The position numbers and the translations under genes were made by a program. The notes under the pieces were generated by a model. That model was not told the DNA's origin. It did not search any database and saw only the letters and a program-made list of their open reading frames with translations. From contig JAAETI010000394.1 of assembly GCA_024228555.1 (NCBI GenBank), forward strand, positions 1 to 64,000: a DNA stretch of 64,000 nucleotides, given 5' to 3'. Below are positions 21,632 through 60,778 of this stretch, piece after piece; the stretch's first letter is position 1, and every line of letters begins with the position of its first letter. The DNA comes from a bacterium. GTDB taxonomy: Bacteria; Actinomycetota; Acidimicrobiia; Spongiisociales; UBA5794.

Positions 21632-21812
21632 GGTTGAGTTACCTCCGTTAGTCGCAAGACGAGGTAGGTCGGCTTGCGTGGCCGAGAGCATACCCGTGCG
21701 TCTTCCAATCTGCAGCAGATATCTTTGGATTGTCCAGAACCTGGATATCTGTCACATTTGGGCTTCTCTTGTGCCACAATGCGATTACCAGAGAGAGGAG
21801 GTGGTCCCAAAA

Positions 21813-21857
21813 ATGTCTGAAAGTCTTTACAGGACCCTGGAGGTGGCCGAGCGCTAA
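21813..21857 (+). CDS. 14-residue ORF, possible leader peptide of arginine deiminase
   Basis: ATG TCT ... TAA encodes MSESLYRTLEVAER. It is preceded by GAGGAGGTGG ending 8 bases before the ATG, one of the strongest ribosome sites in the window, inside an otherwise gene-free 412-base gap. Its stop codon touches a 9-base-stem hairpin. Two arginine codons in a 14-codon peptide upstream of an arginine-degrading enzyme would fit a leader-peptide control system, but this is inference. It could also be a stand-alone small protein. Confidence 0.45.
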   Translation: MSESLYRTLEVAER

Positions 21858-21885
21858 CGGCTACTCGGTTATTTCGGAGTAGCCG
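21858..21885 (+). promoter_or_regulatory. Hairpin directly after the 14-codon ORF (attenuator candidate)
   Basis: Arm CGGCTACTC (21858-21866), a 10-base loop, and the exact return arm at 21877-21885, followed by CTTTG. It starts one base after the small ORF's stop. A terminator or attenuator 160 bases before the arginine deiminase start is possible. The rest of 21632-22043 shows no further gene. The promoters for the divergent lipoprotein gene must also lie here. Confidence 0.5.
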
Positions 21886-22043
21886 CTTTGCAGGTGGCGA
21901 CTCCAACTCGGACCACCGGAACCCGGAGATCTGCAATTTGGTCCTATTGCAGCGGTCATCGACCGAAGATGCTCCGGGTTCTTCCGCGTCCAGAGTGATC
22001 TCGTCTGCCCGGGGGTCGTACCAACCACTAGGGTCCGGATTCG

Positions 22044-33852: not shown

Positions 33853-35124
33853 TTGGCTAAATACGAAGGCGGCGAGCTTCTCAAGTGCAGCTTCTGCGGT
33901 AAATCGCAGAAGCAGGTGCGCAAGCTCATTGCGGGTCCGGGTGTCTACATCTGTGACGAGTGCGTTGAGCTGTGCAACGAGATCATCGAAGAAGAACTGG
34001 CCGACACCGAGGAAGTCAGCTTTGCTGAACTTCCCAAGCCAAGCGAGATCTACGAATTCCTAGACGGATATGTGGTTGGCCAAACCAAGGCCAAGCGTGT
34101 GCTGTCGGTGGCCGTCTACAACCATTACAAGCGAGTCCGCGCCGGCCAGAAGGCCAAGGACGAAGATGTCGAGCTTCAGAAGTCGAACATCTTGATGGTC
34201 GGCCCCACGGGTGTCGGCAAAACGTTGCTGGCCCAGACTTTGGCCCGCAGACTCAACGTTCCCTTCGCCATTGCGGATGCGACCGCACTTACGGAAGCGG
34301 GATACGTTGGTGAGGACGTCGAGAACATCCTGCTCAAGCTGATTCAGGCCGCTGACTTTGATATCAAGCGAGCCGAGACCGGCATTATCTATCTCGACGA
34401 GATTGACAAGATTGCCCGCAAGGCCGAGAACCCGTCCATCACCCGTGACGTGTCCGGCGAAGGCGTGCAGCAGGCACTCCTCAAAATTCTCGAAGGCACG
34501 GTCGCATCGGTTCCGCCGCAGGGTGGCCGTAAGCATCCCCATCAGGAATTCCTCCAGATCGACACCACAAACATGTTGTTTGTCTGTGGCGGTGCTTTTG
34601 CCGGCCTCGAAGAAGTCATTCGCAAGCGTGTTGGCAAGAACTCCGTCGGCTTTGGTGCTGAGGTGCGGTCTCTCGACAGCCGCAACGACACCGAGATCTT
34701 TGCCGAGGTCATGCCAGAAGACTTGATTTCCTTCGGGCTCATTCCCGAATTCATCGGACGTCTCCCGGTTGTAACCACCGTTGAGAGTCTTGACCTCGAT
34801 TCGCTGGTGCGGGTCCTCCAAGAGCCTCGTAACGCTCTGATCCGTCAGTACTCGAAGTTCTTCGAAATGGACGGAGTCGAGCTTGTTGTAACCGACGCTG
34901 CTCTGTTGGCTATCGCCGAGCAAGCTCTCAACCGGGGCACTGGCGCTCGTGGCCTCCGTGCCATTCTCGAGGAAGTGCTTCTCGACACCATGTACGAGCT
35001 TCCCTCCCGCACCGACATCGCTCGCGTCGTCATCGACGAAGACGTCGTCCGCGAGAAGGTCAACCCGACGCTGGTCCCCGTCCAAGACCTTGGCTCATCC
35101 GAGGCGCAGGAACGCTCGGCCTAG
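33853..35124 (+). CDS. clpX: ATP-dependent Clp protease ATP-binding subunit ClpX
   Basis: 423 residues from TTG 33853. The N-terminal zinc domain has Cys12, Cys15, Cys34 and Cys37 (CSFCGK...CDECVELC). The AAA+ core shows [17 protein letters not shown], the pore loop [13 protein letters not shown], Walker [14 protein letters not shown], and sensor region [11 protein letters not shown]. It unfolds tagged proteins and feeds ClpP. It is the end of the tig-clpP-clpX group. Immediately after its stop begins the hairpin array. Confidence 0.96.
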
Positions 35125-35127
35125 GTT

Positions 35128-35377
35128 TCGGGCGAATCAGGATTCGCCCGAGTTTCTCCGCCGTGGCCTTCGGCACGGCTTCGTAGCGGTGCGGCCTCTC
35201 GGCCGCTCCCTTTCGTTCGGACGGGCGGAGCCCGTCCTCTCGACATGAGGGGGCCTGCGGGAACTCACCTTTGGTGAGTTCCTTGCGAGTTTGCTCCGCA
35301 AACTCGGGCTTATGTCTGCGAGATTGCGAGCTGCAGTTCCGAAGGAACTGCCAACGAACTCGGCAAAGCCGAGTTCG
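35128..35377. repeat. Array of eight perfect or near-perfect short hairpins
   Basis: Hairpins, with arm and loop: 35128-35151 (TCGGGCGAATC, 2-base loop); 35160-35179 (GCCGTG, bulged G, inner loop TTC); 35191-35206 (GCGGCC, TCTC); 35219-35237 (GGACGGGC, GGA); 35260-35282 (GGAACTCACC, TTT); 35286-35306 (CGAGTTTGC, TCC); 35333-35351 (GCAGTTCC, GAA); 35355-35377 (CGAACTCGGC, AAA). All follow clpX, in a gap (35125-35435) with no gene. The first may terminate clpX and the last may do so for the convergent amidohydrolase gene. The middle ones share AACTC/GAGTT in their arms. Confidence 0.85.
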
Positions 35378-35435: not shown

Positions 35436-36668
35436 CTAGGCGGGACTCTTAACCAGCTCCCCGGCTTTCCAGACGTGGGTTACTCGATCTGGGTTGCCCC
35501 ATACGGTTATGTCGTCGAGCGGGTTTACATCGAAGGCGATGATGTCGGCGTCGTAGCCTTCTCGCAGTTGGGCGGACATGGGGGCTTGCGGGCCGAGGGT
35601 GAGGGGACCGGTGGCGGTCGCGGCTTCGATGGCTTCTAGGGGAGTCATGCCGGCGTCGATGAGGTACTTCACTTCGAGGCTGTTGGTGCCGTACATGGGG
35701 CCGCTGACGAAGATGTCGGTTCCCATGGCGATCTTGACACCGGCGGCGACAGCGATCTTGAGAGCCATTGCATGTCGATCGGCAATCATGACGCCCTTGC
35801 GATATGCGTACGGAGGCAGGATGTCTTCCATCTGCAGCAGTGCTGCCACCACAAAACGCGTCGGGACGAGGATCGCATCACTATCGATCATCATCTGAGC
35901 GCTTTCTTCGGAGAGATACGAACCATGCTCGATGGTTTTCACACCCGCCTTGAGCGCAGCGACGATCCCGGGATCGCCGTGACAGTGGGCGGCCACGATG
36001 CGGTCGGCTCGGGCCGCCTCCTCGACCACTGCCACCAGCTCTTCGTGGGAGAATTGTTGGTGAATCGGATGGTCGATCTCGCTGAGGACACCACCGGATG
36101 CACAGATCTTGATAAGTTGTGCTCCTCGGCGCAGTTGCTTGCGTACGGCTAGCAGGCAGCCGGGGACACCGTCGGCAAGCTCGCCGAACTTGAAGCCGCG
36201 TGTTTCGAGGCTGTGGACGAAGTCCAAGGGGAGACCGTGGATATCGGCGTGGCCGCCTGTGGTCGACAGGATCGATCCAGCGGCGTAGATACGAGGCCCG
36301 GGGATCGTGCCTTCGTCGATAACGGGCTTGAGCGAGATACCTAGGCCGCCGACCTCGCGGAGGCTGGTGATGCCACCATTGAGGGTGGCCGCAGCATCGG
36401 CCGTGGCTCGGGCGATGAGCGTGCCTGGGTCGGCGGCGGCCATCTTCTCGAGATCAGGAATGGGGGAGCCAACGAAGTGGCCGTGCGCTTCCCACATGCC
36501 GGGCATTACTGCTGGCACGGTTGTCTCATGATCGCCTGGCGTTGTGGGGGGAGCGGTGGCGGACGGGCCGGCGTAGACGATGTTGTCACCGTCGGTGATG
36601 ACGGTCCCGTCGCTGATCGGGTCTCCCTTGCCAGGGATCAGAACGTCGGCCGAAATACGTGTCGCCAC
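35436..36668 (-). CDS. Metal-dependent amidohydrolase (imidazolonepropionase/prolidase-like)
   Basis: 410 residues from GTG 36668, after AAAAAGGAGTCATCT. VMPGMWEAHGHF carries an HxH metal pair, KICASGGVLSEIDHP has the bridging-region Lys, AAHCHGDPGIVAAL and TIEHGSYL supply further His ligands, and MGTDIFV the Asp. This is the cytosolic amidohydrolase family that includes imidazolonepropionases, prolidases and aryldialkylphosphatase-like enzymes. The substrate is unknown. It interrupts the usual clpX-valS neighbourhood on the opposite strand. Confidence 0.88.
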   Translation of the reverse strand: MATRISADVLIPGKGDPISDGTVITDGDNIVYAGPSATAPPTTPGDHETTVPAVMPGMWEAHGHFVGSPIPDLEKMAAADPGTLIARATADAAATLNGGITSLREVGGLGISLKPVIDEGTIPGPRIYAAGSILSTTGGHADIHGLPLDFVHSLETRGFKFGELADGVPGCLLAVRKQLRRGAQLIKICASGGVLSEIDHPIHQQFSHEELVAVVEEAARADRIVAAHCHGDPGIVAALKAGVKTIEHGSYLSEESAQMMIDSDAILVPTRFVVAALLQMEDILPPYAYRKGVMIADRHAMALKIAVAAGVKIAMGTDIFVSGPMYGTNSLEVKYLIDAGMTPLEAIEAATATGPLTLGPQAPMSAQLREGYDADIIAFDVNPLDDITVWGNPDRVTHVWKAGELVKSPA

Positions 36669-36919: not shown

Positions 36920-36957
36920 CGAAGAATCCGGGTCCAGAAATGGACCCGGATTCTTCG
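36920..36957 (+). terminator. 17-base-stem hairpin with GAAA loop before valS (terminator/attenuator candidate)
   Basis: Arm CGAAGAATCCGGGTCCA, loop GAAA and exact return: the longest perfect hairpin in the window. It ends 66 bases before the valS ATG, followed by GCGTTATC rather than a U-run. As it lies inside the valS leader, attenuation is possible. I do not see the T-box consensus, so the class of leader is open. Confidence 0.6.
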
Positions 36958-39626: not shown

Positions 39627-40982
39627 GTGGGTAGTGACTATCCCGGCGACTATGAGGCCGCGGTTGCATTCCTGGATCGACGAATCGGCGACGGCATCCG
39701 ACCTGGGTTGGAGCGAATTGAGCACCTGATGGGTTTGATGGGGGACCCGCATCGTGCGTATCCGGTTATCCATGTCGCGGGGACCAACGGCAAGACGACC
39801 GTGGTGCGGATGATTGCCGACATTCTCGGGGCGCACGGCCTATTCACCGGTGCGTTTACGTCACCGCATCTGCATCGAGTCGAAGACCGGTATTCGACGG
39901 GTGGCGCATCATATGGGCCAACCCACCTCGCCCGTGCTGTCGAGGACATCGCCCCCTTTGTCGTAATGCAGGAGGAGCAGTTCGACGAGAGTCCGACCTA
40001 TTTCGAGTTGACGGCCGCCGTTGGTTTTGCTGCCTTTGCGGTGGACGCCGTCGACGTTGCGGTAGTCGAGGTAGGACTCGGCGGCCGCTACGACGCGACC
40101 AACATCGTTCAAGCCGACGTTTCGGTCATCACCGGGATTGCTTTCGACCACATGTCCTATCTAGGCGATACCCAGAGGGAGATCGCCGCCGAGAAGGCTG
40201 CGATCGTCAAGCAGGGTGGCAGGTTGGTGACGGGTCCGATGAGCGCAGAAGCGCTGGAGTCGGTTGCGGAGAGGATCGACGAGACGGGGGCATCGTGGCA
40301 CCGTGCCGGGTCCGAATTCGAGGTTGTCTCCACCGATCGAGATGAAAGGGGTTGGGTTGTGACTGTGCAAGGGATGCACGGTCGGTATGAGGACCTGGTG
40401 CTCGGAATTCACGGGCGTCACCAAACCGTGCACTTGGGGACGGCCATTGCTGCATGCGAGGCGTTACTCGGACGTGCGCTCGATGATGCTGCGGTACGAG
40501 AAGCCGCCGCAACCGTGCGCTCGCCTGGGCGGCTAGAGGTAGGTGGTCTAGCCCCGACCATCCTGATCGATGGGGCCCACAACGAAGAGGGCTTCCATGG
40601 ATTGGTGACTGCCATCGACGAGGAGTTCGATGAGGGCAGCTGGGTCTTGGTGATCGGGGTGCGTGGTGACAGGGATATTGGCGCTTTGGTTTCGAGTCTC
40701 GACGGCAAGGTGTCCCATATCGTCGCAACCCAGGCAGACGATCATATGGCGGTCGCCGCAGACAAGGTCGCAGAGGCCGCCGCGGCGTCCCTTCATGCGC
40801 CGGCCGAGGCGGTAGTACCTGTCGCGGAGGCAATCGAGCATGCAATCGCTATGGCAAAGGGCGACACCGGTGTGGTGGTCGCCGGCTCCTTGTACGTGAT
40901 CGGTGAAGCCCGACACGCACTGAGCCTCGACAACAGTGCGTCACCCGTCCACCGCCGATTCGAAGCTGAAATACCTGAATGA
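39627..40982 (+). CDS. folC: Bifunctional folylpolyglutamate / dihydrofolate synthase
   Basis: 451 residues from GTG 39627. HVAGTNGKTTVVRMIADIL is the ATP-binding P-loop of Mur-ligase-like FolC. FTSPHLHRVEDR, VGLGGRYDATNI and GIAFDHMSYLGDT follow, with ILIDGAHNEEGFHGL in the C-terminal domain. It adds glutamate to dihydropteroate and folates. It probably shares a transcript with valS (5-base gap). Confidence 0.95.
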   Translation: MGSDYPGDYEAAVAFLDRRIGDGIRPGLERIEHLMGLMGDPHRAYPVIHVAGTNGKTTVVRMIADILGAHGLFTGAFTSPHLHRVEDRYSTGGASYGPTHLARAVEDIAPFVVMQEEQFDESPTYFELTAAVGFAAFAVDAVDVAVVEVGLGGRYDATNIVQADVSVITGIAFDHMSYLGDTQREIAAEKAAIVKQGGRLVTGPMSAEALESVAERIDETGASWHRAGSEFEVVSTDRDERGWVVTVQGMHGRYEDLVLGIHGRHQTVHLGTAIAACEALLGRALDDAAVREAAATVRSPGRLEVGGLAPTILIDGAHNEEGFHGLVTAIDEEFDEGSWVLVIGVRGDRDIGALVSSLDGKVSHIVATQADDHMAVAADKVAEAAAASLHAPAEAVVPVAEAIEHAIAMAKGDTGVVVAGSLYVIGEARHALSLDNSASPVHRRFEAEIPE

Positions 40983-41205
40983 TCCAGCACGAATCAGGAT
41001 TCGAGCGAAACCTCATGGGCTGTCTCTCGATGTCGCGGCCGCAAAGGGCGGCCGTCGAGATATCGGTAGGGGCGCGGGGATGGCGCCGGTACGAGGTCGC
41101 CGGTGGCGTGGTTGCCGGCATGCTCCGTGGTAGCTTGATCGCGACGGAGTGCTCTGCGAAAACCTCGCGGTGCGATGTAGTTGAAGCAAGGTACTGAGGT
41201 GGATG
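40983..41205. other. Gap between folC and the DUF1858-type gene
   Basis: 223 bases without a convincing gene. At 40990-41003 the 14-base sequence CGAATCAGGATTCG repeats the core of the first hairpin after clpX (35128-35151), a hint that this element is dispersed. Otherwise I see nothing. Confidence 0.4.
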
Positions 41206-50726: not shown

Positions 50727-50749
50727 CGAGCTTGACTACGTCAAGCTCG
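50727..50749 (+). terminator. Hairpin after rng
   Basis: A perfect 10-base stem (arm CGAGCTTGAC) with loop TAC, starting 24 bases after the rng stop and 155 bases before rplU. It is followed by GCAAGGCGAGTT, not a U-run. It is similar in build to hairpins after clpX and tRNA-Ala. Confidence 0.6.
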
Positions 50750-50881
50750 CAAGGCGAGTTCCCCGCTTTGGGCCCGTTGTGAGGTGTACTATCATGCGCC
50801 GGCGCTCACCTGAGGGGCATGTCTGCTCGCGGCGTGAGCGTGTACCGGACCGATACGTTGTCCGGGGATCTCGGAGGAATG

Positions 50882-60650: not shown

Positions 60651-60724
60651 GGGGCTGTAGCTCAGCTCGGCAGAGCGCCTGCATGGCATGCAGGAAGTCA
60701 GGGGTTCAAATCCCCTCAGCTCCA
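60651..60724 (+). tRNA. tRNA-Ala (GGC)
   Basis: GGGGCTG pairs with CAGCTCC, with one G-U pair. The anticodon loop is ATGGCAT with GGC, and the T loop is TTCAAAT. The discriminator is A; CCA is not encoded. Confidence 0.96.
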
Positions 60725-60726
60725 CG

Positions 60727-60749
60727 GGAACTCGATGAAATCGAGTTCC
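60727..60749 (+). terminator. Hairpin immediately after tRNA-Ala
   Basis: A 10-base perfect stem (arm GGAACTCGAT) with loop GAA, 2 bases after the tRNA. An overlapping 6-base stem (CCTTGG/CCAAGG, 60748-60765) could form instead. It is probably a terminator without a strong U-run. Confidence 0.7.
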
Positions 60750-60778
60750 TTGGGAGGATCCAAGGGATTCTCCAGGCA

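Follow-up and report, generated by a model that had tools for sequence, protein, structure and literature searches.

Why does the short gap downstream of clpX hold eight hairpins within 250 bases, when one terminator would suffice there? The question is raised by positions 35128-35377 of the window analyzed here, a stretch of 64,000 nt (contig JAAETI010000394.1, positions 1 to 64,000) from a metagenome-assembled genome (MAG) of an actinobacterium of the class Acidimicrobiia. All eight hairpins described in the original prediction are present at their places, and the five triloops listed there (GGA, TTT, TCC, GAA, and AAA) are exact. A convergent gene does follow clpX; however, it is not valS, after which the gap had been named, but an amidohydrolase-like gene, and valS is situated past the latter, so that the gap is that between clpX and the amidohydrolase gene (the names clpX, amidohydrolase, BCCP, LuxR, secA, fumarase-type, and permease were read from protein sequences; the tRNAs are excepted). 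The array is neither one terminator nor eight independent elements. Its right half (35260-35377) consists of two double-hairpin units in inverted orientation. We believe that the array is probably a species-specific pile-up of dispersed palindromic repeats, whose main part is a lineage-specific family, similar to repetitive extragenic palindromes (REPs), established at gene 3' ends. The earlier idea of dispersed palindromes inserting side by side is borne out by the genome-wide copies and by differences in the clpX gap between congeners, but the unit is two hairpins with a 3-nt linker rather than a single hairpin, and it stands beside a different, duplicated block.

Comparison of the array with its own genome (G000, 5.38 Mb in 1027 contigs; all genomes compared in this study are MAGs) by blastn revealed 14 further places. 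In a sample of 864 kb of this genome, taken in stretches, 22 perfect hairpins with a 3-nt loop and arms of at least 9 were found between genes against 1.0 expected, an approximately 20-fold excess, although densities in this sample may run slightly high because its contigs were chosen from earlier matches. Within the window, eight perfect hairpins have arms of at least 10, compared with 0-1 in Markov shuffles, an excess of the kind on which the original prediction had depended, and three of the eight lie inside the array. A pattern search of G000 yielded 34 sites for GAACTC..GAGTTC palindromes versus 3 for the reversed control pattern, and approximately 50 two-hairpin copies were detected by a covariance model (R1) built from 19 units, in a search that scored candidates up to a fixed limit. 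The unit of 41-49 nt comprises a first hairpin, GGAAC..nnn..GTTCC (hp1), the linker TTG, and a second hairpin, SNAGTT..nnn..AACTNS (hp2), with mostly triloops; a G precedes hp1 in 49 of 50 copies, and hp2 is followed by a weak RGG. Since about 50 copies share the outer ends, the TTG linker, and a fixed order of hp1 and hp2, common descent is required. The flanks of the 50 copies contain neither of the tetranucleotide tags GTAG and CGTC.

The alignment of the 19 units demonstrated covariation, the second feature on which the original prediction had depended: both sides change in 13 of 19 pairs, and none of 500 shuffles reaches that number. As these units had been picked partly for good hairpins, the core GTTC[CG]TTG[CG][GC]AG was also searched for in the 864-kb sample with no pairing requirement, and 13 of its 15 occurrences have hairpins on both sides. 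Among 1405 base pairs in 85 copies from the own and related genomes, 1368 are Watson-Crick, 7 are G-U, 14 are A-C, and 16 are other; on the gene strand, G-U occurs less often than A-C and thus is not favored. So small a number of G-U pairs suggests that the stems are maintained at the DNA level or on both strands. Template switching, which is able to create and repair perfect stems (PMC8794818) and would rewrite both arms together, seems the most economical explanation of how the arms are kept. The loops are also constrained, the closing pair being C-G in 134 of 141 triloops and the loop itself GNA or TNC in 91 of them (12.5% expected); 78 triloops have TNC on the gene strand, which is GNA on the opposite strand. 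DNA mini-hairpins of the GCGAAGC type are exceptionally stable (PMC4686876).

The pair types bear on the possibility that the units are functional RNA elements, namely small structured RNAs or processing signals at mRNA and tRNA 3' ends, which are selected on the transcript, duplicated with genes, and not mobile. Such elements would be consistent with three observations described below: the single orientation relative to genes, the register shared by nine tRNA types across ten genomes, and the presence, at orthologous sites of some congeners, of double hairpins whose arms differ. On the other hand, A-C outnumbers G-U on the gene strand (14 against 7), the genes upstream are unrelated, the closest relatives have no units at many sites, and the GNA-type loop, a DNA-stable motif, is on the non-gene strand. 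We consider this explanation distinctly unlikely. The stacked RNA structure proposed originally would agree with the location of the units at transcript ends, but the scarcity of G-U pairs speaks against it. Folding of the 311-nt gap gives z = -7.4 for RNA (+ strand) and z = -9.2 for DNA (- strand), and no Rfam family matched over the array at gathering score. A protein-binding or nucleoid site, by analogy with some enterobacterial REPs and bacterial interspersed mosaic elements (BIMEs) that bind host proteins, appears very improbable: the unusual stability of the DNA mini-hairpins makes extruded hairpins conceivable, but the arms vary while only pairing persists, which disfavors a sequence-specific double-strand site. 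Neither this proposal nor that of a recombination spot gained support.

The double hairpin is patchily distributed. At least one match (E <= 1e-5) was found in 40 of 99 related genomes, where copy and genome counts from multi-genome searches are lower bounds. The copy-rich genomes are G000 and G062 (at least 42 copies each), G017 (at least 40), G055 (at least 28), G018 (at least 26), and G032 (at least 21), and scattered among them are members of the same family without a match. In a class-wide sample of 148 genomes, matches were detected in eight, all of them from the same order. A scan of named genomes gave three MAG contigs, two labeled Acidimicrobiaceae or Acidimicrobiia and one labeled Acidobacteriota, and viral contigs contained no match to either of two patterns.

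Orthologous sites in congeners are often empty. The C-terminal part of clpX has orthologs with 90-95% identity within the genus, and the amidohydrolase-like neighbor is also present in G003 and G004. In G004, however, the gap between the two genes is only about 75 bp and has no array, in G003 it is occupied by unrelated palindromic repeats, and in G002 and G006 a different sequence follows clpX; copy-number change in this gap, which the original prediction had proposed to look for among relatives, is therefore observed. The LuxR-secA site is empty in G004 and G006, and the tRNA-Arg and tRNA-Ile sites are empty in G003. Downstream of tRNA-Ala, G000 has the double hairpin between the tRNA and a terminator-like hairpin, whereas in G002 and G003 there is no unit and the terminator-like hairpin directly follows the tRNA. 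At several loci, double hairpins with different arms occupy the same sites in congeners: LuxR (G001), tRNA-Ala (G005), BCCP (G001 and G005), and a fumarase-type gene (G005). Such sites may have received insertions more than once, or a hairpin may have been kept for a long time while changes in its arms were compensated. Other palindromic repeat families were also seen at gene-end sites in congeners, for example CCTCCCTTTGGGAGGGACGGGGCG... (L117, the clpX gap of G003) and CAGTCCCCCCGCAGAGCGGGGG... (L183, after the LuxR gene of G005).

Analysis of positions, with gene ends taken from simple codon-usage calls and ARAGORN, revealed a strong preference of the 41 usable own copies for gene 3' ends. 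Sixteen of them begin no more than 5 nt from the 3' end of a gene on the same strand (3.4 expected; maximum of 10 in 20,000 random placements), and 20 start within 10 nt after it (5.8 expected; maximum of 14). In 20 cases it is hp1 that is turned toward the gene end, against 2 for hp2. The favored positions at protein genes are 0-9 nt past the stop codon or, in eight cases in G000, G001, and G005, around it. All 16 tRNA-adjacent copies, from ten genomes, have one register, discriminator-C74-G-hp1, on tRNAs for Ala, Arg, Ile, Met, Lys, Ser, Tyr, Phe, and Glu. An apparent excess of TAG stops beside copies was rejected, as TAG accounts for 41% of stops in G000.

Position after genes and between convergent genes, together with the strong folding of the gap, would also agree with conventional intrinsic terminators that are arranged in tandem and lack U-tracts, of the I-shaped or stacked kinds known from mycobacteria, the likeness of copies being then due to convergence or old duplication; tailless I-shaped terminators have been discussed for M. 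tuberculosis (PMC5335608). However, terminator-like hairpins of G000 are different, with arms of 10-18, 4-nt loops, and locations mainly 12-35 nt from the stop codon. Moreover, the units are not trailed by a U-rich tail, as TTG or RGG follows the hairpins, their common anatomy demands shared ancestry, and their presence is patchy, with empty orthologous sites. This explanation appears unlikely. A scan for U-tract terminators found none within 120-160 nt downstream of the units, but its sensitivity is low (approximately 9% of convergent control ends score), and thus it cannot show whether the units replace terminators.

A particular arrangement is observed at eight gene ends (two in G000, one in G001, and five in G005), where positions 3-5 of hp1 are the stop codon of the gene. 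All eight perfect hairpins start exactly 2 nt before the stop, the last codon being G-S-S, with G at -1, and hp1 is followed by a short linker and hp2, usually of the same type. In G005 there are five such cases among 592 gene ends, with 0.15 expected. The stop is TAA in four of these five, compared with 6% of gene stops in this genome, which suggests that the element probably supplies the stop codon; the -2 offset is then automatic because the element carries the stop at hp1 positions 3-5. Congeners can be compared at two of the loci, BCCP and the fumarase-type gene, and at both the protein is equally long where the hairpin is missing. Alternatively, the constant offset might arise if the end of the host gene were copied into the right arm; an element that itself carries the stop fits the TAA use, the G at -1, and the G-S-S codon better.

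The candidate mobilizers examined were not associated with the family. The Y1 transposase domain (PF01797) of REP-associated tyrosine transposases (RAYTs) is absent from G000 and from 98 of the 99 genomes, including all copy-rich ones, in assemblies that are incomplete MAGs; as far as Y1_Tnp can tell, RAYT is excluded as the mobilizer. Reverse transcriptase (PF00078) and IS110 transposase (PF01548) were rejected in this role, their presence showing no association with copy number. We infer the following scheme for the mobilization and function of the family. The units would spread by insertion and become established at gene 3' ends in one orientation, either after C74 of a tRNA or at or a few nucleotides from a stop codon, and further copies may follow within an already occupied gap. 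The arms would stay perfect through template-switch (quasipalindrome) correction, in which both arms are rewritten together with no G-U intermediates. Copies could persist if transcripts tolerate, or profit from, a compact hairpin at their very end, which might stop 3'-5' exonucleases or serve as a weak, tailless terminator working in both directions, as proposed for REPs.

Several observations weigh against a REP-like family spreading to gene 3' ends. About half of the copies are more than 10 nt from any gene end, although many of the more distant ones are second units within one gap. At tRNA-Ala the unit lies upstream of an apparent ordinary terminator and thus is not needed as one there. 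A role of the units at transcript ends is predicted from their position. Where orthologous loci bear hairpins with different arms, selection may have maintained them vertically, instead of insertion having been repeated. Finally, no mobilizer was found among the Y1, PF00078, and PF01548 candidates, and no target duplication was recognized. Still, we favor a dispersed REP-like family. A bolder proposal, that these are mobile bacterial hairpins operating without Y1 transposase or reverse transcriptase, targeted to gene 3' ends (C74 and stop codons), and with a first stem able to carry the stop, is speculative and rather doubtful at present; if it is true, insertion would have to be guided by transcript ends, or hairpins would have to arise by fold-back DNA synthesis at gene ends. 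The family bears on the question of how small palindromic repeats spread without RAYT transposases and on the annotation of transcript ends in little-studied actinobacteria. Its sharp anatomy, the exact register at C74 and the stop codon, the existence of genomes with and without copies, and the empty orthologous sites make both mobilization and a template-switch origin directly testable.

Table 1. Features of the clpX gap, other units of the window, and hairpins that contain stop codons
Feature	Position	Strand	Description
clpX	33853..35124	+	Open reading frame and translation; array begins 3 nt past its stop codon
Hairpin A	35128..35151	+	TCGGGCGAAT-CAGG-ATTCGCCCGA; member of a second, shorter repeat family
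Hairpins B, C, D	35160..35237	+	B 35160-35179, C 35188-35209, D 35219-35237; remainder of block common to C377:73773-73908
Double-hairpin unit 1	35260..35306	+	R1, 66.8 bits
Unit 1, hp1	35260-35282	+	GGAACTCACC-TTT-GGTGAGTTCC; then linker TTG
Unit 1, hp2	35286-35306	+	CGAGTTTGC-TCC-GCAAACTCG
Double-hairpin unit 2, inverted	35333..35377	-	R1, 57.7 bits
Unit 2, parts	hp1 35355-35377; linker 35352-35354; hp2 35333-35351	-	Linker CAA (TTG on minus strand)
Amidohydrolase-like gene	35436..36668	-	Convergent, closes the gap; name read from protein sequence
Truncated relative	50727..50762	-	Intact hp2-like hairpin 50727-50749, CAA, then single hp1 arm GGCGAGTTCC
Third double-hairpin unit	60727..60773	+	R1, 60.4 bits; directly after tRNA-Ala 60651-60725
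Stop-containing perfect hairpins			L225, L235, L236, L242, L286 (G005); L151, L152 (G000); L208 (G001)

The block of hairpins A-D that precedes the two units in the array (Table 1) has 79% identity (blastn) to its counterpart on contig C377, and pairing is preserved despite the changes. An exact copy of hairpin A occurs at C377:73775-73798, and an arm variant with compensating changes at C912:5585-5608; both are located 3 nt past a stop codon. A decayed copy (CGAATCAGGATTCG) was observed at 40991-41004 of the window, directly after the stop codon of a gene ending at 40982. The third unit of the window has the register discriminator A, C74, G, and then hp1. In G000, tandem duplications of 70-103 bp enclosing a unit and its flank were noted at C243:82774/82844, C377:87631/87718, C486:129993/130096, and C517:25/105. 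Another dispersed palindrome family, CCGATCCCCCC-ATCAA-GGGGGGAT, is represented at C123:15625, C304:3067 and 3205, C377:7248 and 47503, and C519:60685, and sometimes adjoins a double-hairpin unit. Two further features of the window are a perfect 17-bp hairpin with a GAAA loop (36920-36957) directly upstream of valS, whose true start is probably further in, as the hairpin overlaps the first ATG of the open reading frame, and a match to the actinobacterial small RNA family Ms_IGR-5 at 21787-21988 (45.5 bits against a gathering score of 45).

Several known systems resemble the double hairpins in part. In one archaeal species, a palindrome has been described that keeps a constant spacing from the 3' ends of tRNAs, but it is confined to tRNA genes, with a single motif at 10 bp. 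Actinobacterial tailless (I-shaped) or tandem intrinsic terminators (PMC5335608) also are hairpins after genes without a U-tract, whereas the units are copies of one dispersed family and lie nearer to the stop codon than the terminator-like hairpins of G000. In fungal and sponge mitochondria, repetitive hairpin-forming and double-hairpin elements (PMC2800124) likewise consist of two adjacent dispersed hairpins with complementary substitutions and have no known function or mobilizer, a likeness of structure only; the present family differs in its residence in a bacterial chromosome, the fixed 3-nt linker and hairpin order, and the oriented anchoring at gene 3' ends. A further parallel is provided by REPs, BIMEs, and REPINs (PMC3733652, PMC2817692, PMC3116915), which are short dispersed intergenic palindromes in tens of copies, found close to the 3' ends of genes and between convergent ones, frequently in pairs or clusters, and with arms varying in complementary fashion; some ends of GTAG REPs are reported to supply a stop codon (PMC3733652). 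The double hairpins differ from them in the lack of a GTAG or CGTC tag, the fixed two-hairpin unit with its TTG linker, the start exactly after tRNA C74, and the absence of Y1/RAYT from the copy-rich genomes, although CGTC REPs likewise have no RAYT association. In addition, G-T pairing is often observed in GTAG-tagged REPs (PMC3733652), whereas G-U is nearly absent here. The reading that we prefer is that the double hairpins form a new family of REP-like, dispersed hairpins at transcript ends.
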